IMG/VR virus record: IMGVR_UViG_3300002144_000223
Coordinates: 1-31,056 of that record
Reading direction: 5' to 3' (one strand)
DNA length: 31,056 nucleotides
DNA from: a virus
The notes under the pieces were generated by a model. The model was given only the letters and a program-made list of their open reading frames with translations. It had not been told where the DNA came from and did no database searches. The translations under genes and the position numbers were made by a program. Within the stretch, counting starts at the first letter, position 1. Each line of letters begins with the position of its first letter. This document shows, in pieces, positions 1-29,216 of the stretch.

Positions 1-3000
1 TCAGGTTTTAATTTTGCTTTCTTTAATTGTTCTTTATATAGCTCAATTTGATTTTCATAATAGTCGTATTCTATTTGGCCATTTTCGTATTGCTCCTCTA
101 GCTTATCTATTTTACTTTGTATTTCATCAACCCCCGATTTAAGTGCTGATGAAGATTTTGATTCAGAAGATTTGCTGCTTATATCGCCTAGGCTTATGTT
201 GTTTTTCCCTTTGAATTCGCCTTTAGTTGCTAACTCTTTAAGGGCGTTCGTAAACTCTCCCTTGTCAAAGCTTTTGTTGTAGTCTCTAATAAAGTCAAAA
301 GTATCTTTACCTGTGGTTAGATTTATTTTTAATCCGTAATTCTGAAATACTTTTCTTAAAATGTCGCGTAATTTTGTAAATAGAGTTTCATTATAAACTA
401 AATCGCCACTTGCTATTGCTTCAGACAAATAGTTAAGCGTTTCTTCAAACGAATCTGCCTCTGCCTTTGCTTTTCGGGCATTATAATCTTCGTCAATTTT
501 AGCAAGCCCTTCGGCGGTAAGTTTGGACACTTTGTACCTCTTTAGCATGCTGTCCACAAAAACTTTCTTGTCCGCTTCAATTTCTTTAATTTTTCCCGCT
601 AGGTTTGCGTTTTCTTGCGAAACACGTTTGCCAAAATCAGATTCAGCAATTTTATCTTTTCCGTAATAAGATTCTAAGAAAGAAAATAAATCTTTACCGA
701 CCTTTGTCATAATAGTGGGATCATTCTGTATTGCAGTATACAATACCCTATGTAAAAGTTCGTGTCTACCCGTTGTAGATATACCGTCATCTAGATTTAA
801 TTCGCTATTTATAAGCAATGTAAGTTTACCTGTCTTCTTCGACTTATAAAAAGTGCCATAATTATTGCTAGTTTGGTTTTTAATTTGTTCGGAATTATAG
901 CCGTCTTCTTTTAGTATAGTTCTGTACTCATCAGGGTCCGCTAATTTAACTATTGTATCGTCTCCAAATAATTTGCTAACAGCTCCTTTGGTTTTTTCAA
1001 AGTCTTTTGCAATATCTAAAGAAATTTTTTCAATGGCCAAGTCCTCGTTTATAAATCTCAGTCTCTCAGTTGCCTCTTCTTTTTCTAGCTCGTTCATTCC
1101 TTGAAGCTTCGACTTTATATCCTTAGCTTCCACAAGCATGTTATATATCTTGCCAGTAGACTCTTTGCTGTATTCTTTGCTAATACCATCAATCATTTTT
1201 ATGTTACCATGTATAACAGATAACTCATCCATTTTAGTCTTATATTCTTTCTGTAGAATATCTATAGATTCTGCTTTAACTTGTTCGGTAGCATTACTGT
1301 TCAGTATTTTGCCGGCTTTTTCCTGTATGTCTACACTACTTTTATTTAGCTCTAGTATATCATTGTAAGTTGATTTAGGCATACCGTGCACTCTATTTAC
1401 TATCTTATTAGTAAGATTAGAATTTTCCTCAGTTAACTGTTGAGCCTTACTCTGGTATGCTGATAATACAGCTGGCGTTATTCCAGGAGTATTCATTTTT
1501 ACCATTAGTCTAGCTATTTCGGAACCATTATTCTTTATAATAGATTGCTCTGAAGTAGGCATGAATGGTTTAATAGCAGCTCCTGCAATATGTGGCGCTG
1601 ATAACATTAAAGCTGTCAGTACTGTTGTATCTTTAAGTACATCTCCTACGTTATCAAGTAGACCTACATTTTTTCCTAATAAGAATTTATCAATGGAGTT
1701 TTGAGCTAAGTTAGTAAATTGCTCGGACATGTTCTCATTAAGCATGTCAACTGATCTACCCCCAAACCAAGAAGCTAATGTTTCTTTTTTGAGAGTATTC
1801 ATAAAAGCTTGCTTTCCTTCTTCTTTACCTAGTGCTTGTAGTGGTCTAATTGCCCCTTTGAACATATTAGTGGTTACGTTCTCCCCAACACCTTCAGCAT
1901 ATCCAAAAAGCAATGACGCTGATACCATTTGAATAGGATTATAGTCTGTTTCCCCTCTATTGTTACTTCCTGCAAGTTCAAGATACTTCCCACCAGCAGA
2001 ACTAGACGCTATCAATTTCGCCGCTGTTGTTTCCAACTTAAGAGCCGGAACAATCACAGCTCCTGCTTTAGTTGTAGCAAACTTACTTAACCACTTTGCA
2101 GAGTTAGATAATGCGCCTTTAACAATTTCGGATCCCCCTTTTTTAACTACATTTAACGCAACCGCCTCAGCTATAGCCCCTGCTTTAAGCGCTGCATTAC
2201 CTGTACCTCCTGTTAATGCCATCAAAACAAAGTTTGGTATTTGAGAAGCTATAAGATCCCACGCATACTCCCCAAAAGTTTCTACATTTTCAACTTTACG
2301 TTTTCTACCATAAAAGTTTTCATGCATTTCATCTCTTCTTGCTTTGAATCCTAACACCGCTTTTGTTGTATCAGATAAAAAGTCCATTTCATCTTCACCT
2401 TGCAACATACTAACGGCTTTTCTAGGAGCCCAGGTAGCTACATCTGTAACCATATTAGCTACTCCAATAAGTCCCTCAACAAATCCCTCTACCGCAGGTA
2501 CTATTTTAGTAAATTCCCAACCAATACCATAGTGTCTTTTTGCTAAGTCAAATTCTTCATTAGCCGTTCCTAATTTCTTAGCTGATTTATCGTAGGCTTC
2601 TAAATTTGAAGTATATCCAGCGTATGATATATTAGCAAACTTCTTTAAATCGTTTAGATTTTTTATTTTTATATTAAAAGCATCAACCTGATCTTGTGTT
2701 TCAAACTTTGGGTTTTCACCGTATGATTTAAGTTCCGCTTGTATTTTGTCAATTTTGTTAGCGTAATCAGTAAGATCATTATTAAGCATGCTATTGATTG
2801 CGGCTTTCTTTTTGAATTCCGGAGTTTCTATAGCAATTACTTTTTCGCTGCGACTTTCAAGTAAATCTTGTTTGCTCCCGCTTATGTCTTTTAAGTACTG
2901 TTCTGTTTTTTTATTAGCTAACGCTGCATATTGTCTATGCCCATATTTTCTTTCAGACAAAGAACTTATTTGGGTTTCCGTTAGCTTTTCCCCTTTTTGT

Positions 3001-3653
3001 TTAGCTTCTTTCAAAACTTGTTCACGTTCACTAGCAAATGGAATATATGCTTTATCTCCATCACCTTCCCAAGCATTCTCAAAAGCAGCTCCAACAGATG
3101 TCCAACTATCATCTTCTCTTTTCTCACCTACGGTCTTAAATGACTTTTCTCTTAATGTATTGATTTTCACCTCGTCTACATCAGCTTGCGTTATAATTCT
3201 ATTATTATTGTATTCTTTGTAAGCTTTGTCTTCTTCAGCCGTTATTGCAGCTAATTCCGCTTTTGGGAGCCTAGACTCTTTCTCTAGCTTTACTTTTAAA
3301 GCTATTTTTTCCGGAGAGTAATATGTGCCTAATCCTTTTTCTTTTCTTTTCTTTGTATTCATGGCTATGTCATTAGCCACCTTTTCTTCTGGGGTTAACC
3401 CCGATTTATTGTTTTTCGATTCCAAAGAAGAATTTACCGATTTGGACACCGTACTTTCTGTTTTGACTGCTCCTGGTTGTAATGGGATCGGTGCTACATC
3501 TGCAGACTTTGTTGTTGCACCTTTTTGCTTTCCCTCACTAGTAACTTCTATTTCTTTAGAACCATTACCCATTTTTGATGATAAAAAATGTTCGGTATCT
3601 GTGTCTTCTACATTTAAGTAACTCCCGTCTGATAATTTATATATTTTTGGCAT
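1..3653 (-). CDS. Giant internal virion (cargo/ejection) protein with HELLH zincin motif, 3' end cut off by window
   Basis: The reading frame is open from the ATG at 3653 to base 1, so at least 1217 residues are visible and the C-terminus is missing. It begins MPKIYKLSDGSYLNV and is rich in Lys/Glu helices. Two Gly/Ala-rich hydrophobic stretches lie near residues 455-500 and 660-690, the kind of segment seen in proteins that cross membranes during DNA ejection. H964-E965-L-L-H968, preceded by STTGR, is a zinc-metallopeptidase HExxH motif; E1078 in LSEAIAS is a candidate third ligand. This resembles the metallopeptidase domains of large polyvalent phage proteins. It is the last gene of the structural run, 16 bases after the 383-residue gene, where short-tailed Bacteroidota phages keep ejected cargo proteins. 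The open frame and size are certain; the peptidase role is inferred, and the virion location comes from context. Confidence 0.8.
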   Translation of the reverse strand, partial: MPKIYKLSDGSYLNVEDTDTEHFLSSKMGNGSKEIEVTSEGKQKGATTKSADVAPIPLQPGAVKTESTVSKSVNSSLESKNNKSGLTPEEKVANDIAMNTKKRKEKGLGTYYSPEKIALKVKLEKESRLPKAELAAITAEEDKAYKEYNNNRIITQADVDEVKINTLREKSFKTVGEKREDDSWTSVGAAFENAWEGDGDKAYIPFASEREQVLKEAKQKGEKLTETQISSLSERKYGHRQYAALANKKTEQYLKDISGSKQDLLESRSEKVIAIETPEFKKKAAINSMLNNDLTDYANKIDKIQAELKSYGENPKFETQDQVDAFNIKIKNLNDLKKFANISYAGYTSNLEAYDKSAKKLGTANEEFDLAKRHYGIGWEFTKIVPAVEGFVEGLIGVANMVTDVATWAPRKAVSMLQGEDEMDFLSDTTKAVLGFKARRDEMHENFYGRKRKVENVETFGEYAWDLIASQIPNFVLMALTGGTGNAALKAGAIAEAVALNVVKKGGSEIVKGALSNSAKWLSKFATTKAGAVIVPALKLETTAAKLIASSSAGGKYLELAGSNNRGETDYNPIQMVSASLLFGYAEGVGENVTTNMFKGAIRPLQALGKEEGKQAFMNTLKKETLASWFGGRSVDMLNENMSEQFTNLAQNSIDKFLLGKNVGLLDNVGDVLKDTTVLTALMLSAPHIAGAAIKPFMPTSEQSIIKNNGSEIARLMVKMNTPGITPAVLSAYQSKAQQLTEENSNLTNKIVNRVHGMPKSTYNDILELNKSSVDIQEKAGKILNSNATEQVKAESIDILQKEYKTKMDELSVIHGNIKMIDGISKEYSKESTGKIYNMLVEAKDIKSKLQGMNELEKEEATERLRFINEDLAIEKISLDIAKDFEKTKGAVSKLFGDDTIVKLADPDEYRTILKEDGYNSEQIKNQTSNNYGTFYKSKKTGKLTLLINSELNLDDGISTTGRHELLHRVLYTAIQNDPTIMTKVGKDLFSFLESYYGKDKIAESDFGKRVSQENANLAGKIKEIEADKKVFVDSMLKRYKVSKLTAEGLAKIDEDYNARKAKAEADSFEETLNYLSEAIASGDLVYNETLFTKLRDILRKVFQNYGLKINLTTGKDTFDFIRDYNKSFDKGEFTNALKELATKGEFKGKNNISLGDISSKSSESKSSSALKSGVDEIQSKIDKLEEQYENGQIEYDYYENQIELYKEQLKKAKLKP

Positions 3654-3669
3654 ACTATGTAATTAAATT

Positions 3670-4821
3670 TTATTGTTTTTTATACGTTTTAGCATCAACA
3701 GGTTCGCTGGTAACAATATTTCCGCTACTATCAAATCCAAACTCTGTCATTGTACCATTGGCATTTTTTACTACAGAAGTTCTAACAACACCATTATCGC
3801 TGCTACTATTAGTCGAGGAGCCTTTGCCTTTGCCATCTGCAATAGCTTTACTCCTTGCAACAGCTTTGTTAATTGAAGCTTGATCTTTTCTGCTCTTCTC
3901 AGCTATTCCTTCATTAGCTACATCATTCCTAGCCTTAACTAGTCTGTCTATTACCTTAGATCTTATAATATTTATTTCACCTTCAGCCCCTTTATTTGCA
4001 TCCCAAATGTTCCCTATGTCCTTCATGCCAAGCTCTGATTCAAAGTCATACACAATAGACTTAAGAGCATTAGGGTTTTGTAATTGCTCTTCTAGCTGCA
4101 TACGGTACATATCATTATCCGTTTTAGTTAATGCCGTACCTGATTTGTATATGGACTCATTGCTTTTTAGTATGCTGTTAGCTAACTCATAATCCTTATA
4201 TATAGGAGCTTGGCTATCATTAAATGCTACTAACTTATTATCTATATTAAACCCTATGTTTCCACCTTCCGTTATTTGTAAAGGAGCATCATAACTAGCA
4301 TCGCTTCTTTTATCCCCATCACCGTCATAAAAACCATACATAATCATAGATTCTCTATTCTTATCCGGGTCCATGCCTTTCGACAAAGAGTTATTTAGTT
4401 GATCACCGGCATAGTCCAATTTACTTTTCTTGTAAGATTTTAACTGTTCTGCTAAATTAGTAAAACTGTTATTCACACCATTCATAACATCGACATACTG
4501 AGCATACTCAGGAGATGATGCATCCTCTATTTTTGATATGTTTTTAGCAGCATCAGCATACTTAGATCTTTCTGCCATAAGAAAATTTCTCATTGCAGCA
4601 GTCTCTGAACCAGAAAAAGAACTAAAGTCCATTCCTGTTTTTAGTTTGCCCATGTAGTCGTTTACGGTGTTTTGGTACTGGTTGTTTTTCTTAACAGTAG
4701 AGGGAGTACCCGTAGCGCCTTCCCCCGTCATTAGTCCTTTGCCAACTATCTCCCCAATATCCATAAAAGCTTTGCTATCTCCTACCCGTTTAGCTCCTTG
4801 TATTAATATGTTATTTGCCAT
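3670..4821 (-). CDS. Putative internal virion/cargo protein (383 aa), unknown family
   Basis: I do not recognise a named domain. The protein is hydrophilic and mostly helical, with a Gly/Thr-rich N-terminal part, a DGDGDKRSD segment near residue 170 that could be a calcium-binding-like loop, and a Ser/Gly/Asn-rich linker near residue 335 before a short beta-like tail. It lacks a signal peptide and membrane segments. It sits between the Gly/Ala-rich 203-residue protein and the giant zincin protein, with only short A/T-rich gaps on each side, so it is probably expressed with them as a virion component. The start is the ATG at 4821, preceded by an A-rich leader (AAATAAAAATAAAATACAAT) without a Shine-Dalgarno sequence. 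The role as cargo protein is inferred from position only; a tail or neck part is the main alternative. Confidence 0.8.
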   Translation of the reverse strand: MANNILIQGAKRVGDSKAFMDIGEIVGKGLMTGEGATGTPSTVKKNNQYQNTVNDYMGKLKTGMDFSSFSGSETAAMRNFLMAERSKYADAAKNISKIEDASSPEYAQYVDVMNGVNNSFTNLAEQLKSYKKSKLDYAGDQLNNSLSKGMDPDKNRESMIMYGFYDGDGDKRSDASYDAPLQITEGGNIGFNIDNKLVAFNDSQAPIYKDYELANSILKSNESIYKSGTALTKTDNDMYRMQLEEQLQNPNALKSIVYDFESELGMKDIGNIWDANKGAEGEINIIRSKVIDRLVKARNDVANEGIAEKSRKDQASINKAVARSKAIADGKGKGSSTNSSSDNGVVRTSVVKNANGTMTEFGFDSSGNIVTSEPVDAKTYKKQ

Positions 4822-15524: not shown

Positions 15525-16991
15525 CTAGGTTGCTTTGAACAATACAAAGTTGTTCGCTGCTTGAGTACACATAGTTCTTTCAGATAAGAAATGAACATTC
15601 ATTTTATCAGAATCACTTGTGTAGTTTCCTCCAACAGAACCAGTAACCCAAGATTTTAGACGTCTGTCATCAGCTTCAGAAGCACGGTAACGGATGTGTA
15701 AGAATGGTCTTGAGATATTTTGTCCCAATGATTGATCATAAACTGTAGAAGTTCCAGCAGGAACTAACACTCCTTTAATGTCATTGATAAGTCCACGAGT
15801 TGTAGAATCATTCAAGTATTTCCAGTCAGTTTTGTAAAAATCATAGGCACCTCTACGGAATCCAGAGAATCCTAAGTTTAATGCCATATCTTCAGAGTTG
15901 TCAAATACACCGTAAGATGTACCACCAGCTCCATAAGAATTTTGAGCAGCAAGCATATTGTCAATAGAAAGTGAGGTAGCTCTATCCAAGAACAACATAT
16001 TTTCTTCAATCGCTCCTTGTTTGTCCAATTCTGAAAGAATAGTATCAAATTCAGCAATACCAACACCTCCAGCAGCGCCAAAGTCAGGGTCGTTATAAAC
16101 AAGTCCTCTTTCCTCTAGTGCAGAAAATAAACCTTGAGTTCCCTCAATGTTACCACCACCAGGATTTTGTCCAACGTTAGCTGTGATTGTTCCAGCTGCT
16201 TTTTCAGCTTCAACCATTGCCATTTCTAAGTAATCTTCAAAACGAATTCTAGCTTCGTGCTCTGATTTTAAATACCATAAGTAACCACCAGTACCAATCT
16301 CAGTAGTAACTTCTACCCATCCGATTTGAGCTACGTCAGAACCGTTAACAGTATACTTGTCTCTTAAGATAATTGGTTGATTGCTGTAAGGCGTAAAAGA
16401 TGCATCAACTGAGTTTCCTGCAGCCTCAGATCCTTTTAAATACTCAGAACCATAAACGAACAAGCTAAGAGGTAATTCAGCGGTAGCCCCTTGCAAAGCT
16501 GCTGTGAAGTTACTATTCGCATTATCATAAACAGAGATGTTGTAAGTTTGAATTCCACCAGCTAAAGCCCCTACAGAGTTAACATAAGCTTTGTTTGTTG
16601 TATTGCCTAGTGCTACTACAAGAGTCATCCCAGCTCCTAGTAAAGGTGCTTTTCCGTCTGCTCCAGGAGAAGGTAATCCAAGTGTTTGTCCGTTTGCTCC
16701 ACCAGGAGTGTTTGAAGTAGCAGTATCATAAGCGATATGCAATCTTCCTTGTTCTGACCATACTACTTGATCTGATGCCATTGGCATTTCAGCTCCAACC
16801 ATACGCAAGAATCCAGCGATTGTACGGTTACCGTAACGCTCAATTTCTTTTTCGTACACCTCAGGTAAGAATTGTTGTGTCCAGTCCATATCTGCCAAAG
16901 ACAAATAGTTGTCTCCAAATAAACCTTTTACAGGACGTGGAGTTAAATGTGATAAATTTGCCAAACTAGTTGGCGACGTTGCAAATGCCAT
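15525..16991 (-). CDS. Major capsid protein
   Basis: The 488-residue product has the size and place expected for an HK97-fold capsid protein: portal, scaffold-like gene, then this gene. It starts MAFATSPTSLANLSHLTPRP and carries DWTQQFLPEVYEKEIERYGN and FLRMVGAEMPMASDQVVWSE near the N-terminus, a segment typical of capsid proteins of Bacteroidota short-tailed phages. The body is Ala/Gly-rich with balanced alpha/beta composition; the C-terminus (SEADDRRLKSWVTGSVGG, then KMNVHFLSERTMCTQAANNF) is compact. Its codon use is visibly more even and G/C-richer than neighbouring hypothetical genes (many GCT, CCA, GGT codons), as expected for a highly expressed gene. The start at 16991 has an A-rich leader (AAATAAAAAATT). 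A hairpin follows. No single catalytic motif exists to prove the call. Confidence 0.85.
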   Translation of the reverse strand: MAFATSPTSLANLSHLTPRPVKGLFGDNYLSLADMDWTQQFLPEVYEKEIERYGNRTIAGFLRMVGAEMPMASDQVVWSEQGRLHIAYDTATSNTPGGANGQTLGLPSPGADGKAPLLGAGMTLVVALGNTTNKAYVNSVGALAGGIQTYNISVYDNANSNFTAALQGATAELPLSLFVYGSEYLKGSEAAGNSVDASFTPYSNQPIILRDKYTVNGSDVAQIGWVEVTTEIGTGGYLWYLKSEHEARIRFEDYLEMAMVEAEKAAGTITANVGQNPGGGNIEGTQGLFSALEERGLVYNDPDFGAAGGVGIAEFDTILSELDKQGAIEENMLFLDRATSLSIDNMLAAQNSYGAGGTSYGVFDNSEDMALNLGFSGFRRGAYDFYKTDWKYLNDSTTRGLINDIKGVLVPAGTSTVYDQSLGQNISRPFLHIRYRASEADDRRLKSWVTGSVGGNYTSDSDKMNVHFLSERTMCTQAANNFVLFKAT

Positions 16992-18216: not shown

Positions 18217-20646
18217 TTACCTAGGTTCGAAAGAACCTAAGTCAAAACCACCTCCAACTATGTCATTGCCAGATGATTCAAAATTCTTTGGTGGTAAATT
18301 GTTTTGTTTTTGGTTTGTTAATTCACTTTGCTGAGTACCTTGCATTTTAAGTCTTTGATCTTTTCTATCTTGATCTTCTTTAATTTTTTGTTGCATTGAC
18401 TCAACTTCCATGCCTTTTAACTTCATATTATATTGGAATTCTAATTCCATTAATTGTTTTTTAGCATCTACCTCAACAGCTATCCTCTGTTGCTCAATTT
18501 GACCTTTCAGTTGTTCTAATTGTGATTTTGTTTGGAACATTGCCTGATCTTTCTGTATTTCAGTTTGAGCAGCAGCTTGTTGCATTTGAATATTCGATTG
18601 TGACTGCGCTTGTATATTTGCTTGTTGCTCCGCTTGTATTCTTTCTTGTCTTTTCTTTTGTCTAACTTTTAACAGCTGGTTAGCAAGCTTTATATTTCGG
18701 ACCTCACGAATATCGATGGCATCAGATAAATCTATTAATCCTCCAGAAAGAGCAACTTGAATATTATTTTCGAGCATGGCTTTTTCCTCGTCATCCGGGG
18801 TAAGCTCCAAGTTTATTGCAAAGTCATGTATATGCAAATCACTAAGTTCATCAAGCGTGGCTACATTAAATCCACCTATTTTTTGTATAAATGCCTCTTT
18901 AGCGGGGTGATATTCTAATATATCAGATATTCTTAATGATAAACATTCCGCTAGTTCTTGTGTTAAAAATAATCCTGCATCTAGTATATGTCTTGTGGCA
19001 GTGTTTGAATTAGCGGCTGCTAATTTCTGTACACCAACCAATGCCCTAGGGTCTGGAGAACTACCATCTCTGGCTTCATTAAGACCAGTCACATCCCTTA
19101 TCATTTGTAGATAGTAGTTGTAAGTCTGTATTAATGTTTGTAGTTTTGCTCCACCATTACCAGTTGGCACTTCCTGTATTGGCACTTTACCTGGGTTCAT
19201 GTCGCCATCCTGAGTAAATGATCTACCTATAATTGATCCAGTTTGGAAAAACATATTTAATGCTTCCTGTGGATTATAGTTTGTACCATTGCCTAAATCA
19301 ACCTCGTTTATACCATCAACATCAAGGTATACCCCGTCTGGTATCATTTTTTGTAATACCTGTTGCATCTTTAAATGCGTAATCTGAACCATGTCTGCAA
19401 ATCCCGTACATCTACCAATAAGTGATTCTATTCTACCTTGGTACATTCTAGGGGCTACAATACTATAGCTCATTTTAACTTTAGTTTCGTCACTCTTAGG
19501 ACGCATCATGTTTTTAGCCAACTCCCACTTTAATAGTATATCAGTGCCAAGAACCATTACCCCGTCATACAATACTTCAATTGATCTTGACATTTTACCA
19601 AACTGAGCTTCGTAATCTTCAATAGGCGGATCAAATTGATCGTCTCTTAGTATTACTTTTGATGCCCCCGTTGCTGTTTCTTTAACTTTATACACCTCAT
19701 TCATATAGGTTTTGAAGTTAAAATACAATATTTGCACCACATTAGAATCTCTGTTGTTATTATTTGTACTAACATTATTGTCTAGTACACCATAATTTTG
19801 AGATCCTTGTTGCTGTATCTTCTCCATCTGACCTTGATCTAGATTCGGAAATTGCTTTTTAAGCTCGTTTAACGGAACAAACTTAACCTCACCAACATAA
19901 TATATGTCTTGAAAGTATGGGTCCTCCGTGTAAGAGTATACTAAATAAGCAGGGTCCACATATTCAACTGTTACGCCTTCAGACTCGGTAAAATTATTTT
20001 TAACTGCTCCAATTCCCAGAGTAGTCAAGTCATAATAGAATCTTTTTTTAGTTAGACTATATCTGTTACCATCTAATATTGTGTTGATGGCTATTTCTTC
20101 CGCTATCTCTATGCCTTGCTTGTAGCTAAGTTGCATGTGCAAGTCTAACTCTTCTTGTGAATCGGGTAACCTTTCTGGAGGGTTTTCAAATAAATTTATC
20201 CCAAAGTTTTCTTGTGCAAACTGGTTTAACTCTGCAGTCTGTAAGTCTCTAATAATAGACTCTAAATACTTTGTTCTCTTACTTACTCCGTATGGGTCTT
20301 GTGAATAGGCTTTCAAATCAAAAGATCTGTCTGCAATGCCATTTACAACGATGTCTACGAATTTAGAAAGTATCGGCACCGGTTTCCAATCAAGGTTTAA
20401 ATAGGATAAATCACCGTTTATTGATAGTTCATCTTTATACTTCTGTATTGGTTGTTCACCTCTGGCATACAATCTTAGTCCATGGAAAGTGTTTTGGTTA
20501 CTTCTATACCTAGTGGTTCCTGAGTTATTAGAAAACCACTCATTAGCGATAGCTCTACCAACCTGAAGTCCATAATTATCTGACATTTTTTCATTGTCAC
20601 TAACTACTTGACTTGGAAAAAAACTATTTACTGCTCCTTTAGCCAT
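18217..20646 (-). CDS. Portal protein
   Basis: At 809 residues it fits the large portals of crAss-like and P22-like phages. The N-terminal part (GLRLYARGEQPIQKYKDELS, then LDWKPVPILSKFVDIVVNGI) resembles the portal wing entry, and near residues 518-540 the segment GLNEARDGSSPDPRALVGVQ followed by KLAAANSNTATRHILDAGLF is the characteristic stem/clip region. The last about 170 residues are a Gln/Glu/Lys-rich coiled coil (RQKKRQERIQAEQQANIQAQ), a barrel-like extension often seen in these portals. It follows TerL by one base and precedes the scaffold-like gene. The dodecameric portal forms the DNA entry vertex and docks the terminase. Start ATG at 20646 follows an A/T leader. The identification is firm from size, motif and position. 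Confidence 0.88.
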   Translation of the reverse strand: MAKGAVNSFFPSQVVSDNEKMSDNYGLQVGRAIANEWFSNNSGTTRYRSNQNTFHGLRLYARGEQPIQKYKDELSINGDLSYLNLDWKPVPILSKFVDIVVNGIADRSFDLKAYSQDPYGVSKRTKYLESIIRDLQTAELNQFAQENFGINLFENPPERLPDSQEELDLHMQLSYKQGIEIAEEIAINTILDGNRYSLTKKRFYYDLTTLGIGAVKNNFTESEGVTVEYVDPAYLVYSYTEDPYFQDIYYVGEVKFVPLNELKKQFPNLDQGQMEKIQQQGSQNYGVLDNNVSTNNNNRDSNVVQILYFNFKTYMNEVYKVKETATGASKVILRDDQFDPPIEDYEAQFGKMSRSIEVLYDGVMVLGTDILLKWELAKNMMRPKSDETKVKMSYSIVAPRMYQGRIESLIGRCTGFADMVQITHLKMQQVLQKMIPDGVYLDVDGINEVDLGNGTNYNPQEALNMFFQTGSIIGRSFTQDGDMNPGKVPIQEVPTGNGGAKLQTLIQTYNYYLQMIRDVTGLNEARDGSSPDPRALVGVQKLAAANSNTATRHILDAGLFLTQELAECLSLRISDILEYHPAKEAFIQKIGGFNVATLDELSDLHIHDFAINLELTPDDEEKAMLENNIQVALSGGLIDLSDAIDIREVRNIKLANQLLKVRQKKRQERIQAEQQANIQAQSQSNIQMQQAAAQTEIQKDQAMFQTKSQLEQLKGQIEQQRIAVEVDAKKQLMELEFQYNMKLKGMEVESMQQKIKEDQDRKDQRLKMQGTQQSELTNQKQNNLPPKNFESSGNDIVGGGFDLGSFEPR

Positions 20647-20647
20647 A

Positions 20648-22861
20648 TTATCTTTTTATTATTTCTGATGTTGATCCGCCTTGCGAATATCTTGCAATAC
20701 TTAACTTTATTGATGTTTGTTGCGTTGGTGCATTTGGTCTATATAGTTCTTTGTTACAAGCCATTATAGCAAGTCCAGAACTAATAGCAGCATCAAATTT
20801 TGTTCTATTATTTATATCGAACTTAGCCCAGTCATTTAATGTATCTGTGAAGTACATCGTACCGTAGTCTCCGTCTTCTTTAAGTCCAACGTATCTATCT
20901 ATATACATTTCTATAGCTGCTGCGTGTGCTTGTTTCATATCCTCACTTGAATTAGGTACTCCACCTATTTCTTTTTCGGTTACGGATAATTTATTCCACA
21001 CTTTATCTGGTCTATTAATTGAGTAGCCTCTGTAGCCTCTTCTTTTGAAGTAATACAATAACCTTGGTTTGTTATTTTCTGCTAGTATTGGCATACCATA
21101 AAATACACACGCCATTAATACATCTTCAAAAAATATTTCCGCCGTAGGAGGTCTTGATACATACTCTAGAAAAAATGTACTGGGAGGAGCGTCTTCTAAG
21201 TTAAACTTAGTTAGGCCGTGTAATGCGCCTTTAGATCCTCTATTGTCTGTTGTCCCCGATATATCATAACTATCACACCCAAAAGCACCTACGTGTTCAT
21301 TACCTGGATATTTTAATCCATTTTTAACTATTTGCTTATTTTGCATGGCCCCACTTGGAGTCCATGTTACCATAAATCTTCCTTGAGGGTTTGGTGAAAA
21401 TATTACTTTTGTATCTTTTACCCCGTTTTGCCATTGAAAACTTCCTCTTGTTACAACATTTGATGCCTTTAAATCTTCGTTATAATCTATTTGTTCGTAT
21501 ATCTTTGCTAAATTAAATATACTGTTCTGTGTTTCATCTCTGAAAGCATGTTCCTCTGTTCTAGGAAACTGTCTGTAATATTCATTTAGTGCATCTTGAT
21601 CTCCTCTTAAGCCGTCTGCTTCATTGATCCAGTGTTCTATAACACCCATATCTATGGAATCACCTTGAGGGCCTACAGTACCTGCTTTTGGAGTATTGAA
21701 TACCGGTATTCCGTAAGAGTCAATAAATCCTTCGTAATTCCATTCCATCGGTATAAATAAAGAATATAGCCCAGATCTAGTCTGTCCATTTGCGTTCCTT
21801 CTTGTAACGTCAGAATTTGAGTATAAGTTTTTAAAATTATCCCCTCCTTTATCTAATGAATTAGAAGTTGACCCCATTAAGCACTTACCGATTACCCTGC
21901 TACCAAGTCTTAATGTTGTCTTAGTAACCCTCCAGTTGTTCAGTATATTATTTGGCCTTTCCCATTTGCCACTCTCATCATGTACTAAAAGTTTTAACTT
22001 TTCTCCATCATAAGCATTATCTCCCGTATTCTTCCAGTCAATAGTAGTATCTAACCCAGTTATTATTTCTGTTTGATTAGCTGCCCCTAACTTACGCCTT
22101 GTAAGTTTTGATGCTGGCACACGATAGGCAAGCTCTGTTTTTGGACGGTCCATACCATCCTGTATTGGTTTGAAAAAGAATGGATAGTTAACAGATATTG
22201 GTACGACTTTATCAGTAAACATCTTTTTAGCATCACCACCAGATTTTGATAATATACCGTATCTAGAATCACTTGATATTGTTGCTAAGTTTACAATTTC
22301 TCCGGATGCCATGAATGAAAATCCAGAACGTCTGTTCTTTAAGTAACACATGCCATAACACCTCTGATCAGCTTTGCAAGCCTCCCAGAATATATAAAAC
22401 AATCTATTTGATTCCCTGAAATCCGGTTTACCAACGTCAATCTTTGACCATTGTAAATACATATAATGAGAACCTGTAATATAAGTCGGAGCTCCGTTGT
22501 TATTAAACCAATAGCCGTTATCCCTTCTATTAAACTGCTCATCTATATAAACTCCCCACTTGTCTTTAAACGAGTCAGGGTAGTCTCTCCAATCAAATAT
22601 ACTATTTATTGATTTGAACTCCTTAGGGTAGTCCTCAGGCGTCCATTTGTCAGTACTGTTACTTATTTTAGTTGTAGCCTTTGGTAAAGCTATCTTTAAA
22701 TTTTGTATTTGGTATATTTCTCCAATTTCGCCCGTCTTACTTATAACAATAATATCGTATTCTTTGTTGTATCCATAAGTCCATTTTTTAGACTTATTTA
22801 ATCTAGATATTGTTATATCCCGTATTGGGGTTATTACACTATATAATGATTGCTCGTACAT
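20648..22861 (-). CDS. terL: Terminase large subunit (TerL)
   Basis: The 737-residue protein is the packaging motor ATPase and headful nuclease. A deviant Walker A lies at K175-NRRSGFSF-183 (the usual GxxxxGKT is replaced by a basic RRSG core), Walker B at L289-KLLVHDE-296 with the catalytic Glu, and a coupling-like S/T motif at GSTSNS near residue 330. The nuclease domain contains G528-C-D530 (first metal aspartate), FFEDVLMACVFYGMPILAEN near 577-596, and D690 in TKFDAAISSG. The ED-x-L-x-A...YG-x-P pattern is typical of TerL from Bacteroidota podoviruses. The start TAATG overlaps the stop of the 91-residue gene by one base, which suggests translational coupling. It is longer than lambda-type TerL because of N-terminal and linker additions. 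Confidence 0.92.
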   Translation of the reverse strand: MYEQSLYSVITPIRDITISRLNKSKKWTYGYNKEYDIIVISKTGEIGEIYQIQNLKIALPKATTKISNSTDKWTPEDYPKEFKSINSIFDWRDYPDSFKDKWGVYIDEQFNRRDNGYWFNNNGAPTYITGSHYMYLQWSKIDVGKPDFRESNRLFYIFWEACKADQRCYGMCYLKNRRSGFSFMASGEIVNLATISSDSRYGILSKSGGDAKKMFTDKVVPISVNYPFFFKPIQDGMDRPKTELAYRVPASKLTRRKLGAANQTEIITGLDTTIDWKNTGDNAYDGEKLKLLVHDESGKWERPNNILNNWRVTKTTLRLGSRVIGKCLMGSTSNSLDKGGDNFKNLYSNSDVTRRNANGQTRSGLYSLFIPMEWNYEGFIDSYGIPVFNTPKAGTVGPQGDSIDMGVIEHWINEADGLRGDQDALNEYYRQFPRTEEHAFRDETQNSIFNLAKIYEQIDYNEDLKASNVVTRGSFQWQNGVKDTKVIFSPNPQGRFMVTWTPSGAMQNKQIVKNGLKYPGNEHVGAFGCDSYDISGTTDNRGSKGALHGLTKFNLEDAPPSTFFLEYVSRPPTAEIFFEDVLMACVFYGMPILAENNKPRLLYYFKRRGYRGYSINRPDKVWNKLSVTEKEIGGVPNSSEDMKQAHAAAIEMYIDRYVGLKEDGDYGTMYFTDTLNDWAKFDINNRTKFDAAISSGLAIMACNKELYRPNAPTQQTSIKLSIARYSQGGSTSEIIKR

Positions 22862-23136
22862 TATTTAGATCTTTTTTCAGCAAAGCCTGTAAATTTCTTT
22901 TCGTCTTTATCTTCTTTTGGTCTGTCTTCCAATATCCTCTGTTCTTCCTCAATTCTAGTTAGGATTTCAAAGGCGTCAAATATAGCTAGTTTTTTTGTTG
23001 CGGCAGCATTCTTAAGTCTGTCAGCTGATATATCATCACCTGAGTCAACGATCTTTTCTTGAGCTACCTTTATTAACTCCTCAACTGCTTTATGTCCAGC
23101 TAGGATTATATTCTTCTTCGTCTCCTTGATATTCAT
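22861..23136 (-). CDS. Possible small terminase subunit (91 aa helical protein)
   Basis: The protein is short, charged and helical, with DISADRLKNAAATKKLAIFD and AFEILTRIEEEQRILEDRPK. This ADxLKNAA-type segment followed by an amphipathic helix and a basic tail (KKFTGFAEKRSK) could form the oligomerisation core of a small terminase. The position immediately before TerL, with a TAATG stop/start overlap, is the usual terS place. The first 47 bases overlap the end of the 193-residue gene; no later start codon preserves the protein. I see no clear helix-turn-helix DNA-binding motif, so the terS assignment is inference and should be treated as tentative. Confidence 0.6.
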   Translation of the reverse strand: MNIKETKKNIILAGHKAVEELIKVAQEKIVDSGDDISADRLKNAAATKKLAIFDAFEILTRIEEEQRILEDRPKEDKDEKKFTGFAEKRSK

Positions 23137-23671
23137 ATTTGATTGTAATTAGATTTGTGGGTACTCGGTATAACCTCTGCCCTTCTATTATGAATTCATA
23201 TTCCATTCCTGGCCTGAACCCAACAAGTGTGCCATTCTCTATATTGTCATTGCCATATTTAACAATACCAATTAATGGTCTTTCTTTATCTAGTGAAAAT
23301 ATATTTTTTGATTTCAATGGCTTAACAAAACAATATCCATCCAAAGCAACCCACTTGTTATCTTTCTTATAAGCATATATTTGATCCGGTTGAACCAAGT
23401 ATGTGTGCTCATTATAAAAGTTTTTACTGTCTTTTTCTTTTCCTCTTACATCCCTAAACCTTCTGAATACGTTATGATGCACTATTATTTCGTCTCCTTT
23501 CTGTATAGGAGATTTGCCCACCATAGGTGTACCATTAACTATGCCCACACGATTTGTGTATTGGTAGTTTTGTAATTCCGTGTTTAGTATAAGTTGTGTA
23601 CCGTCTATTTCTATTTCTCCTGTTGTCCTGTTCCCTTTTGGGGTAACCAAATAATTAAATACACTGCGCAT
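23090..23671 (-). CDS. Beta-barrel protein, possible tandem GroES-like (co-chaperonin-fold) repeat
   Basis: The protein of 193 residues is beta-rich. Residues about 25-115 hold GIVNGTPMVGKSPIQKGDEI, IVHHNVFRR, and YLVQPDQIYAYKKDNKWVAL, an order (glycine-rich strand, KGDEI turn, strand with HHN, then a DQIYA strand) that resembles the GroES barrel. Residues about 115-180 repeat the plan: FVKPL, RPLIGIVKYGND, GTLVGFRPGMEYEFIIEG, YRVPTNLITI. The likeness is by eye only and needs fold comparison. It lies in the small-gene run before TerL, two bases after the 73-residue gene. If real, it would be a second GroES-related gene besides the short GroES at 27367. Alternative: unrelated beta-barrel tail or head accessory protein. 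Confidence 0.75.
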   Translation of the reverse strand: MRSVFNYLVTPKGNRTTGEIEIDGTQLILNTELQNYQYTNRVGIVNGTPMVGKSPIQKGDEIIVHHNVFRRFRDVRGKEKDSKNFYNEHTYLVQPDQIYAYKKDNKWVALDGYCFVKPLKSKNIFSLDKERPLIGIVKYGNDNIENGTLVGFRPGMEYEFIIEGQRLYRVPTNLITIKYEYQGDEEEYNPSWT

Positions 23672-24369: not shown

Positions 24370-25419
24370 TTATTTAAAGTACTTCATTTTCATTGGAGAC
24401 TTTTTATTAAAGAACCCGTTTGTTTTTTTAGTAACAGCAGAATCCTCTTCTTTACCAGGCAATTCAACTACATCTGGGGTAGTGCTTACCTCCGGTTTTT
24501 TAAACTCTTTAGTAGCAATACTACCTGCTTTCTTTATTGTGTCTTCCTTTTTATTTTTATCAAGGTTTTGACTAGCTTCATAATCAATTCCTTCTTTTTG
24601 TTCTTTTTTAGTTGAGTCTGATTCTTCTGTTAAACGCTGTTTGCTCAGTACATCTTTAGTTGAACCCACCGCTATATTCTGTTGACTCTGATTCTTAGAA
24701 GATTCTATTTCTGACTTGATAACTTCCGCTCTTTGCGTCCTTTTATTCTGTTTTATTTCTGCCTTTTTTTCTTTAAAGGCTTGCTTGCCTTCTGGGGTAG
24801 ACTTATCTGCGCCTGCTCTTGCAGTTCTCATGTCATTTCTTTTTTCCTGCGCAGTAAGATTTTTTATATTCCTAACATTACTTCTTCTTTGATAGGCTGA
24901 CTGGGCATCCCCCTTGTCTTTTACATAAATATCTCCTTCTGCTTCTCCGGAAACGTTGGAAGCGGGAGTGCTTTTTGTTGTAGTTGTTGATGTTGATGCA
25001 TCTTTTGCTTTAGCTTCTGCCTTTGCTTTATTTGCTGCTGCTCTTGCTTTTGGGTTTCTTAGTCCATAACCTTCTAAATCCTTGCGGTGTATCTTTTGCT
25101 TCTCAAGAGCGTCCACATTGGATGTCCCAGGAACTGTTGATGTTGTGGTCAATATTTGACCCGCGTTGGTGCTTGCATTTGTTGATCTATATCTTGACCC
25201 ACTAATCATACCGGAGTTTGAAGTAGTCTCATCCCCTCCCTCTAGCGGGTTTTTTTTCTGCTTAGCTGGAGCTGACATCATTTTATTAGGTGATGGAGCA
25301 TTACTTGTCTGGTTATTGCCGGACACTCCAGCGGCCCCAACGTTAAGTATTGGCTCTGAGACTTTTTGGCCGAATAAACCTTTGCTTATTCTTGCTGTAA
25401 TTGGAATATTATTTGACAT
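24370..25419 (-). CDS. Lysine-rich protein with two SPxKM motifs and duplicated C-terminal module (349 aa)
   Basis: Family not recognised. The protein is low in complexity and rich in Lys/Ser/Thr/Asn/Ala, predicted disordered with one charged helix block (residues about 130-260, KAKAEAKAKDAST, KQAFKEKKAEIKQNKRTQRA). It contains SPNKM at residues 43-47 and SPMKM at 341-345, with an APAKQK stretch at 50-55. Residues 302-344 (ATKEFKKPEVSTTPDVVELP onward) are nearly the same as the C-terminus of the 267-residue protein two genes upstream, a duplicated module. Base composition equals that of the neighbours. Such proteins may be packaged with DNA or bind nucleic acid, but no function is shown. Confidence 0.75.
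   Translation of the reverse strand: MSNNIPITARISKGLFGQKVSEPILNVGAAGVSGNNQTSNAPSPNKMMSAPAKQKKNPLEGGDETTSNSGMISGSRYRSTNASTNAGQILTTTSTVPGTSNVDALEKQKIHRKDLEGYGLRNPKARAAANKAKAEAKAKDASTSTTTTKSTPASNVSGEAEGDIYVKDKGDAQSAYQRRSNVRNIKNLTAQEKRNDMRTARAGADKSTPEGKQAFKEKKAEIKQNKRTQRAEVIKSEIESSKNQSQQNIAVGSTKDVLSKQRLTEESDSTKKEQKEGIDYEASQNLDKNKKEDTIKKAGSIATKEFKKPEVSTTPDVVELPGKEEDSAVTKKTNGFFNKKSPMKMKYFK
24388..24516 (-). repeat. Copy A of duplicated 43-codon module
   Basis: This encodes residues 302-344 of the 349-residue protein. The partner copy is at 26142-26270. By eye about 34 of 43 residues are identical, and the DNA is also similar, including a shared stretch around TAGTTGAATTRCC on the plus-strand complement side. 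Both copies sit in the same orientation at the ends of their genes. Confidence 0.85.
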
Positions 25420-26114: not shown

Positions 26115-26918
26115 TTAGCGTTTTATTTTTTTAGCTACAGATTTCATTGCAGACTTTTTACCAAAGAATCCTTTTTCTTTTTTAGTAACAGCAGATTCTC
26201 CTTTTTTACTAGGTAATTCAACTACATCTGGGGTAGTACTTACAGACGGTTTTTTAAACTCTTTAGTAGCAACTACTCCACTTGATTTTATGGTTGAAAC
26301 CGGCTCTATGTCTTTAGCTTTATGTCTAACTTTAGATCCCATCGCGGCATTGATTTGGTTTTGAGCAGCGGCATATTCACGACTGCCTTTTGCTGCAGAA
26401 TTTCTTGCTTTAACAAGTTTATCCATAGTCCCTCCTTTATTAGCCGCTTCGTAGCTGTTTGCTTTTACAGCAGGTTTTTCCTCTACTTTAGGAGCTGGCT
26501 TAGTTGCAGAATTTCTTGTAACTGACTTAGTCGTTGCTTTTGCACCCGGAGCCGGTAACCCTTTAATACTTTTATATGTTTTTGGGTCTGATGCTTCCAT
26601 TGATGCAACAACTCTTGCGGCCCTTTGCCTAGCTGTTCCTATTCTACCGCCTGATATATCAAATTTTTTATCTGTAGAGCGAAGCATAGCTTTAGCGTCG
26701 TTATAACTTTTTGTTGCCTTGTTGGTTTCTCTTCTTTTGTTAGCCTCTCTTGATTTTTTCCAAGTCTCTGTCGAACCCATCTTAGCAGGGGACTTTACGT
26801 ACCCATACTCTTTTTTCATTTCCGCATTTGACTCGTTTTTCTCGTGTTTCGCTTTTGCGGATTTTGAAGCGTACTTTTCTCCAGTAGCTTTTTCTGTAAC
26901 TTTCTTCTTGATTGCCAT
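26115..26918 (-). CDS. Lysine-rich protein with SPAKM motif and duplicated C-terminal module (267 aa)
   Basis: The protein is very basic and Ala/Lys-rich (AKAKHEKNESNAEMKKEYGY, then VKSPAKMG at residues 42-49). Residues about 55-130 contain a charged helical region (KKSREANKRRETNKATKSYN and ARQRAARVVASMEASDPKTY); then comes a Lys/Pro/Ala-rich linker and the 217-259 module shared with the 349-residue protein, ending in KKSAMKSVAKKIKR. No known domain. It begins 11 bases after the winged-helix gene's stop. A DNA-binding or virion-packaged role is plausible by composition but not shown. Confidence 0.75.
   Translation of the reverse strand: MAIKKKVTEKATGEKYASKSAKAKHEKNESNAEMKKEYGYVKSPAKMGSTETWKKSREANKRRETNKATKSYNDAKAMLRSTDKKFDISGGRIGTARQRAARVVASMEASDPKTYKSIKGLPAPGAKATTKSVTRNSATKPAPKVEEKPAVKANSYEAANKGGTMDKLVKARNSAAKGSREYAAAQNQINAAMGSKVRHKAKDIEPVSTIKSSGVVATKEFKKPSVSTTPDVVELPSKKGESAVTKKEKGFFGKKSAMKSVAKKIKR
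26142..26270 (-). repeat. Copy B of duplicated 43-codon module
   Basis: This encodes residues 217-259 of the 267-residue protein and matches 24388-24516. The shared core ATKEFKKPxVSTTPDVVELP is followed by SAVTKK and GFFxKKS. Nucleotide similarity continues through the core, so the copies probably arose by duplication or by gene conversion. Confidence 0.85.
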
Positions 26919-26929
26919 AATTATTGGTT

Positions 26930-27370
26930 TTACCTGTTTTTGTCTTTTATCATGTTATCGATAGCTTTGTTAAAAACTTTGTCAGTGTATGATTTGTTTT
27001 TAAAAAACTTACTCCTATGAGATGTTGGTAAATCTTCAACTCCTAGAAGTATATTATATATTCTTGTAATTAATCTTTTTGCTTTTGTCGATGTTTGATA
27101 AACACTATACTTCATTGTTGTATTGTTGCGTTGCCTCCATACATCAATCCAACCATCTTTGCGAAGTCGTTCCCATCTGGCTTTGTCCCAAGAGTACGTA
27201 TACGCACCATCTATGAAATCATTACGTGTAAAATGTACTTTGCAATCTAAATATATAAGTAGTTCTAAATCAGCATCATTCAACTCGTGTGTTTTGCATG
27301 CCCATTTACGTACAATCCTATAATATTTGAACAGGTTTATATCTCTTAAGTCCGCTGGCGTTAGTCTCAT
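26930..27370 (-). CDS. Winged-helix-like DNA-binding protein (146 aa)
   Basis: The segment DADLELLIYLDCKVHFTRND (33-51) followed by WDKARWERLRKDGWIDVWRQ (61-80) and TMKYSVYQTSTKAKRLITRI (85-104) has the order helix, recognition-type helix, beta wing and C-terminal helix of MarR-like winged-helix proteins. Arg and Lys clusters on the wing support nucleic-acid contact. The start at 27370 overlaps the GroES stop (ATGA), so translation is likely coupled. It could be a late-gene regulator or a small packaging-type protein; sequence alone does not separate these. Not a canonical family to me. Confidence 0.7.
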   Translation of the reverse strand: MRLTPADLRDINLFKYYRIVRKWACKTHELNDADLELLIYLDCKVHFTRNDFIDGAYTYSWDKARWERLRKDGWIDVWRQRNNTTMKYSVYQTSTKAKRLITRIYNILLGVEDLPTSHRSKFFKNKSYTDKVFNKAIDNMIKDKNR

Positions 27371-27624
27371 TCAATAATAACTACATCGTTAATTGTTATA
27401 ACAAAATATAGTTTATCCACCCATTCTATTCCGTGGCCTGCGTGTTTATCATATCTGATAATATCACCCGGCTTTAAAAAATCAATCTTGTCACCAACGC
27501 TAATGATTTCACCTTTTAGGTATCTAACATCATGGTTCTGACTTTGCGTTATTTCAAGTCCTCCAACTGTCTTAGGGGCCTCTTTAATTTTGTCTATAAT
27601 AATAAAGTGGTTTACTGCTTGCAT
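27367..27624 (-). CDS. groES: GroES-like co-chaperonin (85 aa)
   Basis: With the start at 27624 the protein reads MQAVNHFIIIDKIKE. Residues 17-31 form a mobile-loop analogue with GGLEIT (family GGIVL-type motif), followed by RYLKGEIISVGD, FLKPGDIIRYDKHAGHGIE and a final strand ITINDVVIIE. It is shorter than bacterial GroES (about 97 residues), mainly because the roof loop region is reduced. The start was chosen because the GroEL stop TAA overlaps it as TAATG; an upstream ATG at 27651 would add nine residues from inside the GroEL gene. It should cap the adjacent GroEL during folding of phage or host proteins. Confidence 0.88.
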   Translation of the reverse strand: MQAVNHFIIIDKIKEAPKTVGGLEITQSQNHDVRYLKGEIISVGDKIDFLKPGDIIRYDKHAGHGIEWVDKLYFVITINDVVIIE

Positions 27625-29216
27625 TATCCTCTCATATTTGAAATTATACAATCAGCTGATACTATGGTAGTTGCAACACTTATTGCGTTTTTCAGTGCTG
27701 ATTTTGTAACCAATACTGGATCTATAATACCATTTTCAACCATATTTTTGTAGCATCCACAAGTGGCATCTACTCCAACTCCTATCCATTCTCTGTCTTC
27801 TAACTCAATATCCGAGTCTACAAACTCTTTCGGATTTAATATATCCTCATATCCTGCATTATCTAATATTGTATAATATGGAGATTGTATTGACTTAAGA
27901 AGTATATCGTAACCAGCTCCTTTGGGCTCTATTATTTGCGAAGCATTTAAAAGAGCTACTCCACCTCCAGGAACAATTCCTTCAATTAAGGCGGCTTTGG
28001 TTGCATGTAATGCATCTTCAACTCTATCTTTCTTTTCTTTTAATTCTAAAGCAGAATCGGCTCCTACATATAGGACACCAACTTTGCCAGTAAGCATTGA
28101 TAATCTTTGCTCTAATTTCTTTTTAATATAACCGTTTGTTTCTTTTGCAATCTTAGTTTCAACATCTGCAATTCTTTCTGAGACGTCAGCATCAATATCT
28201 TTAACTTGTAGGATAGTGCTTTTAGAATCAGTAACAGACTTAAGTACTTCGCCTAACACATTTATGTCTATCAAATCTAGATCATCCCCAAGCTCTTCAT
28301 TTATAACTGTAGCCCCGGTTAATAAAGCTAAGTCTTCAATAGTATCTTGTTTTGTTGGGCCAAATCCAGGCAAATCGACAACATTAACTTTAATGTTACC
28401 TTTTACTTTGTTTGTTAGTAACGTTGCATAAGGTTGTTGTTCAACAGTAGCAATTATTAATAAACTTCTTTTTGTTTTGACTATATGTTCTAATATACTT
28501 TGTATTCTTCTTATATTTGGAATAGGTGAACTTACAATCAACACCAACGGATTATCAAGAACCGCTGTGCCTTTATCTTTGTCTGTTAAAAAGTAAGGAG
28601 ATTTAATGCCTGAGTCAAATTGTGTTCCTTCAACAAAATCAATATAAGTTTCATTTGTTGGAGAATCTTCCATTAAGACTACCCCATTCCTTCCAACTTT
28701 TTCGAAAGCTTCACCAATTTTTTCGCCAAGTTCCTTGTCGTTATTACAGCTGATGTAAGCAACTTGCCGTAGCATATCACCCTCAACTTCAATACTGACT
28801 TTATCAAGGTATTTAGTAATCTCTTCCGAGCACTCAAAAATTTGGTTCTTAATGTCCCTAATTTTTTCATCACCTTCGTATTCGTTTATGTTTTTAAGCA
28901 ATGAGTAAGCTAAGACAGTAGCGGTAGTTGTACCGTCCCCTGCCTCTCTTACTGTATTACTAGCAGCTTCCTTTATTAAAGTAGCCCCTATATTTTCGAC
29001 CGGGTCCATTAAGACTACGCTTTCTGCAACGGTTACACCGTCTTTTGTTATCACCGGTCTACCCATAGCGTCCTCGTATATTACGCATTTTCCAGATGCA
29101 CCTAACGTGCTCTTAACTGCGTTTGCTAATTTTTCGACGCCACTCATTATTTTGTCCTTTGCTTCATCTCCAAAGCTCAGGTTCTTCACAATATTACTTG
29201 GTAAGTTAAATTCCAT
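27624..29216 (-). CDS. groEL: Phage-encoded GroEL-type chaperonin
   Basis: The 530-residue protein is a full-length group I chaperonin. Visible motifs: VITKDGVTVA (D59), GDGTTTATVLA at residues 93-103, RVEDALHATKAALIEG with the ATP-hydrolysis Asp at D401, PGGGVALL shortly after, and IIDPVLVTKSALKNA in the C-terminal equatorial part. It ends NMRG and lacks the Gly-Gly-Met C-terminal tail of bacterial GroEL. It makes a folding chamber together with GroES encoded next. Phage copies are thought to help fold capsid or other large virion proteins, but the client here is not shown. A 65-base gap with a possible promoter-like motif precedes the ATG at 29216. It could be host-acquired, but its divergence from bacterial GroEL suggests a long phage history. 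Confidence 0.95.
   Translation of the reverse strand: MEFNLPSNIVKNLSFGDEAKDKIMSGVEKLANAVKSTLGASGKCVIYEDAMGRPVITKDGVTVAESVVLMDPVENIGATLIKEAASNTVREAGDGTTTATVLAYSLLKNINEYEGDEKIRDIKNQIFECSEEITKYLDKVSIEVEGDMLRQVAYISCNNDKELGEKIGEAFEKVGRNGVVLMEDSPTNETYIDFVEGTQFDSGIKSPYFLTDKDKGTAVLDNPLVLIVSSPIPNIRRIQSILEHIVKTKRSLLIIATVEQQPYATLLTNKVKGNIKVNVVDLPGFGPTKQDTIEDLALLTGATVINEELGDDLDLIDINVLGEVLKSVTDSKSTILQVKDIDADVSERIADVETKIAKETNGYIKKKLEQRLSMLTGKVGVLYVGADSALELKEKKDRVEDALHATKAALIEGIVPGGGVALLNASQIIEPKGAGYDILLKSIQSPYYTILDNAGYEDILNPKEFVDSDIELEDREWIGVGVDATCGCYKNMVENGIIDPVLVTKSALKNAISVATTIVSADCIISNMRG

Follow-up and report, generated by a model that had tools for sequence, protein, structure and literature searches.

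Co-chaperonins with two Cpn10 domains have so far been a plastid peculiarity, described within the literature searched in chloroplasts and in the plastid of the malaria parasite, and they pose the puzzle of fitting even domain numbers to a seven-fold chaperonin. Cpn20-type proteins of plastids have been proposed to form seven-domain rings together with a single-domain co-chaperonin (PMC5780408). Among phages, gp31 of T4 is required for folding of the capsid protein (PMC6318259), and phages EL, OBP and AR9 encode GroEL-like chambers with altered ring contacts (PMC7185714, PMC9598537). Single-ring phage chaperonins are also known (PMC9598537). The presence of phage GroEL and GroES together is documented in PMC7185714, citing Marine et al., and viral GroEL/GroES pairs of the sort considered here have probably been reported before in that work on virioplankton chaperonins.

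The DNA analysed here, termed the window, is an entire virus record of 31 kb (31,056 nucleotides) that is linear and probably a fragment. The chaperonin genes of the window and its packaging and structural genes, with the small gene between ES2 and terminase, are located on the minus strand. GroEL (Cpn60) is encoded at 27624-29216 as a protein of 530 residues that was identified by a full-length Cpn60 domain (PF00118, residues 30-527, E 6e-53, 180.6 bits with a cut-off of 34.3), a match to phrog_5725 (E 6e-135), the catalytic aspartates and its position in the tree described below. The score was above the cut-off of NCBIfam subfamily NF000592 and below the threshold of the NCBI equivalog TIGR02348 (468.7 versus 582.1 bits), indicating a divergent member. 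Residues D59, D94 and D401 align with the catalytic D52, D87 and D398 of GroEL and each is invariant in 20 of 20 relatives. A preliminary description of the window had listed D59, D401 and GDGTTTATVLA (G93-A103) as kept and the GGM tail as lacking. Both statements hold, with D94 as a third catalytic residue; the protein ends in ...SADCIISNMRG, and the tail is missing there and in every viral relative compared. A Gly/Met-rich tail is present in most cellular Bacteroidota copies. The canonical inter-ring contacts (R452, E461, S463 and V464) are not kept, R452 being replaced and positions 461-464 deleted in 16 of 20 relatives, and the R197-E386 pair is lost, with serine in place of R197 in the window. 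Given these changes, a single ring or a labile double ring is plausible. The GroES-binding site is altered as well, L234 being replaced by Gln in all 20 proteins and V264 being polar or small.

The stop codon of GroEL overlaps the start of a single-domain GroES of 85 residues, hereafter ES1 (27367-27624), in the sequence TAATG at 27622-27626, as previously described. The ATG at 27624 was preferred as the start over an upstream TTG, from which the ORF caller derived a version of 94 residues, because relatives align from an MQA or MKA start. ES1 scored 33.5 bits with PF00166 (Cpn10; cut-off 21.1), and the PHROG assignment agreed. The mobile loop, identified by alignment with GroES, spans residues 14-34 (KEAPKTVGGLEITQSQNHDVR, 27523-27585) and contains the GG plus hydrophobic motif as VGGLEIT, the consensus of relatives being GGLELT. 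Co-variation of this loop with the L234 replacement in GroEL was unsupported, since Gln is found in 20 of 20 GroELs while the loop varies. The roof reported earlier as abbreviated is nine residues shorter than that of Salmonella GroES in the alignment. An identical gap is present in GroES of elemo, MW202828 and Bacteroides phage SJC03, so the short roof is not unique to ES1 and is a common variation compatible with membership in the Cpn10/GroES family. It recalls the wider opening of gp31, which, like CocO of RB49, is a phage co-chaperonin. In SJC03 the short-roof GroES-like protein of 87 residues (2227-2490) and a GroEL of 540 residues (2504-4126) are both entered in GenBank as 'hypothetical protein'. 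In the Callevirus phage Calle (25745-27868) the GroEL-GroES order of the window is reversed: the single Cpn10 gene comes first, followed by a small ORF and then by GroEL.

A pattern scan of IMG/VR recovered at least 597 relatives of the window GroEL. The GroEL-GroES junction was as in the window in all of the best 80 loci. The ratio dN/dS between close relatives was 0.04-0.13 for GroEL, ES1 and the double-domain protein described below, with dS near saturation, and on this comparison of sequences the three genes are under purifying selection. The invariant junction and a dN/dS of about 0.05-0.09 for the pair indicate that the pairing of GroEL with ES1 is not due to chance. The chaperonins of EL, OBP and AR9 are reported to work without a co-chaperonin, whereas in the window the GroEL gene overlaps that of a GroES and a double-domain co-chaperonin is encoded besides; the presence of an adjacent GroES in all of the best 80 loci argues against co-chaperonin-free working of that kind. 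The statement that few phages encode both parts holds reasonably well across sequenced phages as a whole (278 of 50,697 phage records matched the window GroEL, some being bacterial contamination) and does not extend to this lineage, where the pair is universal among the best 80 loci.

The preliminary description recognized a genuine GroEL/GroES pair and overlooked a third gene at 23090-23671, which extends it to a three-gene set. This gene encodes a protein of 193 residues, hereafter ES2, located a short way upstream of terminase. It matched phrog_13932 'co-chaperonin GroES' (E 2e-14), while searches of Pfam, NCBIfam and PDB sequences with the window protein returned no match; thus its identity was revealed only by PHROG, by fold and through its relatives. 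The AlphaFold model (pLDDT 84, pTM 0.78) was compared with the PDB by Foldseek, and the top two matches were the Cpn20 and Cpn23 chains of Chlamydomonas 7ekq. Alignment with Cpn20 extended over 204 columns with a query-normalised TM of 0.54 across the whole protein, above what one half alone could give, which indicates a tandem fold. The next matches were single GroES chains covering half of ES2, and T4 gp31 was a weak match at rank 42. The two halves correspond to an N-terminal Cpn10 domain with an LILN loop (residues 1-105, 23357-23671) and a C-terminal Cpn10 domain with a short mobile loop (residues 106-180, 23132-23356). When the C-terminal 88 residues were folded alone (pLDDT 77), the top 33 PDB matches were all Cpn10/GroES, including the tandem chains of 7ekq, and matches of high probability were limited to that family. 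Profile comparison gave a probability of 97 (P 1e-10) for the C half with Cpn10 and 86 (P 5e-6) for the N half with phage single GroES; 60 column permutations, performed with a slightly smaller alignment, never reached the Cpn10 score of either half. In the Pfam search of 56 ES2 orthologues a Cpn10 match was obtained for one, below threshold. The C halves of the Calle and phi18:3 orthologues passed the Pfam Cpn10 cut-off (28.0 and 32.6 bits), and the N halves of elemo and phi18:3 scored 11.7 and 11.5 bits with the Cpn10 profile, the best of 600 shuffles being 8.7. The predicted model and these comparisons provide good support for ES2 as two Cpn10 folds arranged head to tail, an arrangement shared with plastid Cpn20. 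Of the two domains the C-terminal one is the firmer, the N half being assigned by fold and a weaker profile signal. Beside this architecture the short roof of ES1 is the lesser oddity.

The likeness to Cpn20 and Cpn23 of chloroplasts, and to Cpn20 of the apicoplast, consists of the two head-to-tail Cpn10 domains and, for the chloroplast proteins, of coexistence with a single-domain co-chaperonin (Cpn10) and Cpn60. ES2 differs from these proteins in being phage-encoded and, in the phage group of the window, in the shortened mobile loop of its C domain, and sequence comparison starting from the window protein detected no similarity to them. Since a sequence search of the PDB with ES2 matched no chain, the resemblance is one of how the proteins may work and does not place ES2 in the plastid Cpn20 family. 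Orthologues of ES2 are already on record, one being named the Pervagoviridae core gene 'chaperonin cpn10' (PMC8776804) and others, in phi38:1, phi18:3 and elemo, 'co-chaperonin GroES', so that relatives stand in databases as plain GroES or as hypothetical proteins, entries that the present assignment corrects. No description of the tandem structure of these orthologues, or of their occurrence alongside a single-domain GroES in phages, was found in the open-access literature; within that literature the tandem architecture and the single/double pairing seem to be new, the phage GroEL/GroES pairs and the 'cpn10' label having been known.

Recent internal duplication was rejected as the origin of ES2, the halves showing no mutual signal (P 0.03, with 6 of 60 permuted profiles equally good); any duplication would thus be old. 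In many genomes of Bacteroidota a divergent second Cpn10-like gene lies away from groES-groEL, and these genes were ruled out as the source of ES2 because they are single-domain. The C-terminal tail of ES2, YEYQGDEEEYNPSWA (23093-23136), hardly varies within the marine clade and is missing from ES2 of elemo, Calle, Panino and MW202828. Because the next ORF overlaps this stretch, the conservation may stem from either frame.

Downstream sequence of 5.5 kb or more was available at 69 GroEL loci; ES2 was found there on the same strand in 62 of them, and in six of the other seven elsewhere in the record. Terminase was next to ES2 in all 131 ES2 loci with room. The isolates elemo, Calle, Panino and MW202828 contain GroEL together with the single and the double co-chaperonin. 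Phage phi18:3 encodes the single (31108-31362) and the double (41458-42060) protein with no Cpn60 match across its 71 kb, indicating that the lid pair itself forms a conserved unit. None of the three genes was found in Gundel in these searches.

The reading favoured here, with somewhat better than even confidence, is that the window encodes a complete group I chaperonin set of GroEL, ES1 and ES2, with ES1 and ES2 as lids on the folding chamber and the single and double proteins probably co-assembling. From the computed gene identities, tandem fold and conservation of the set, we infer the lid function, the mixed ring and the substrates as follows. The phage GroEL ring, in which the ATPase residues are kept, would most likely hydrolyse ATP and be capped by the Cpn10-domain lids, forming a chamber in which phage proteins made late would fold. 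The case of gp31 and gp23 suggests by analogy that the substrates are probably virion proteins, for capsid and tail, encoded in the adjoining operon, among them a probable capsid protein of 488 residues, about 54 kDa. By analogy with Cpn10/Cpn20 of plastids, ES1 and ES2 would most probably co-assemble in one ring, three double proteins and one single protein supplying seven domains. Where a relative encodes no GroEL, as in phi18:3, the counterparts of ES1 and ES2 would need to act on the GroEL of the host. T4, by comparison, combines host GroEL with one single-domain lid, in contrast to the phage of the window with its own GroEL and both a single and a double lid. These considerations suggest that the marine phages of this group substitute their own proteins for part of the folding machinery of the host when virions are assembled. 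A more tentative proposal, which we regard as possible but rather less than evenly probable, is that phages of Bacteroidota evolved the mixed lid, in which one single Cpn10 protein is combined with three double ones, independently of plastids, and that the pair, and not GroEL, is the conserved unit, working on phage GroEL where present and otherwise on that of the host. A phage lineage with a single and double set would be an apparently independent second case of what is found in plastids, and the culturable isolates (Elemovirus, Callevirus, phi18:3 and Panino), with or without their own GroEL, constitute a natural experiment on the mixed ring. The altered GroES-binding site of GroEL (L234 to Gln, and V264) counts against the favoured reading, as do the short mobile loop of the ES2 C domain, the weak sequence support of the N half, and the different transcription contexts of ES1 and ES2, which are on opposite strands in elemo.

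The main rival holds that the two lids never mix, ES1 capping phage GroEL and ES2 acting like gp31 to redirect the GroEL of the host to capsid proteins of the phage. The LILN/LLLN loop of the ES2 N domain resembles the hydrophobic GroES tripeptide, while that of ES1 is usually LE(L/I); the binding groove of phage GroEL is altered, ES2 sits in the structural operon, and phi18:3 has ES2 without GroEL. However, phi18:3 also keeps a single GroES, showing that the single protein is not tied to phage GroEL, and ES2 accompanies GroEL in nearly all marine loci with room, within reach or elsewhere in the record. Separate lids are therefore considered unlikely, at roughly one chance in four.

A second rival, still less probable, is that ES2 is no lid of GroEL, the double Cpn10 serving as an adaptor or assembly factor for terminase or portal or capping another ring. 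Such a role would be in accord with the constant adjacency of terminase (131 of 131), with the listing of the orthologue as a Pervagoviridae core gene together with structural genes (PMC8776804), and with the occurrence of tandem Cpn10 proteins in the chloroplast ClpP complex 7ekq. In addition, the mobile loop of the C domain is short and without a GGIVL-like motif in the phage group of the window, although long in Calle, so that this domain may not bind GroEL. On the other hand, the hydrophobic core of the N-domain loop (LILN/LLLN) is conserved across orthologues, and a single GroES accompanies ES2 even when no GroEL is encoded. In phi18:3, virion MS/MS underlies the annotation of neighbouring genes but not that of ES2, an absence that is weak evidence.

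In a tree of the phage group with 20 cellular Bacteroidota, one Salmonella and 14 other phage GroELs, GroELs of the phage group formed one virus-only clade (SH-aLRT 99) separate from those of Bacteroidota and Salmonella, and those of elemo, Panino and MW202828 joined close to it with long branches, a placement whose support of 94 is not decisive. Some phage GroELs do group with bacterial ones, those of Vibrio phages Va1 and 2.275.O standing with gammaproteobacterial GroEL. For the genes of the window, recent acquisition from a bacterial host and chimeric assembly are ruled out to the point of negligible probability by the virus-only clade, a best match of only 42% in the phage-record collection, the reversal of the cellular groES-groEL order, and recurrence of the layout in the best 80 separate contigs and in isolates. 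Placement of the pair inside one bacterial clade with near identity, the outcome that the preliminary description named as refuting it, was not observed, and no near-identical cellular homologues in the same order were seen.

The terminase of the window is 62% identical to that of podovirus genome MW202828 (60.9 kb, Manatee Spring) and 46% identical to that of Elemovirus phages of Flavobacterium. Other relatives are Callevirus (Pervagoviridae) and Maribacter phage Panino, with Pachyviridae more distant. The phage is of podovirus type, and its isolate relatives, for example Elemovirus, Callevirus and Panino, have genomes of 60-77 kb, and we infer that the host very probably belongs to the Bacteroidota. 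The chaperonin-bearing group is a widespread family of marine phages. A terminase scan of genome contigs matched phage contigs only. Contigs of the group are binned into many unrelated MAGs assigned to Woesearchaeota, Pacearchaeota, Euryarchaeota, Desulfobacteraceae and Maricaulis, and such assignments evidently represent mis-binned phage DNA.

Downstream of ES2 are genes for the terminase large subunit (20648-22861; phrog_6681, E 5e-168), the portal protein (18217-20646; phrog_6547, E 6e-142) and a virion structural protein, the probable major capsid protein of 488 residues (15525-16991; phrog_13704, E 5e-95). The order of genes is the same as in Calle, where the corresponding gene is labelled capsid; the product is a candidate chaperonin substrate. 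A small gene conserved in relatives (22861-23136) overlaps the ES2 tail and encodes a protein of 91 residues (MNIKETKKNIILAGHKAVEELIKVA...) that is found between ES2 and TerL in the relatives compared, has no family match, and is by position a candidate small terminase subunit. The lysis cassette placed beside the GroEL/GroES pair in the preliminary description is weakly supported: DUF5675 and small membrane-like ORFs are present, and no endolysin or holin family was matched. Two different lysine-rich ORFs (24370-25419 and 26115-26918) share the C-terminal segment ATKEFKKPxVSTTPDVVELPxK...SAVTKK..GFF.KKS.MK, and short SPAKM/SPMKM-like motifs recur in the ORFs neighbouring this pair.
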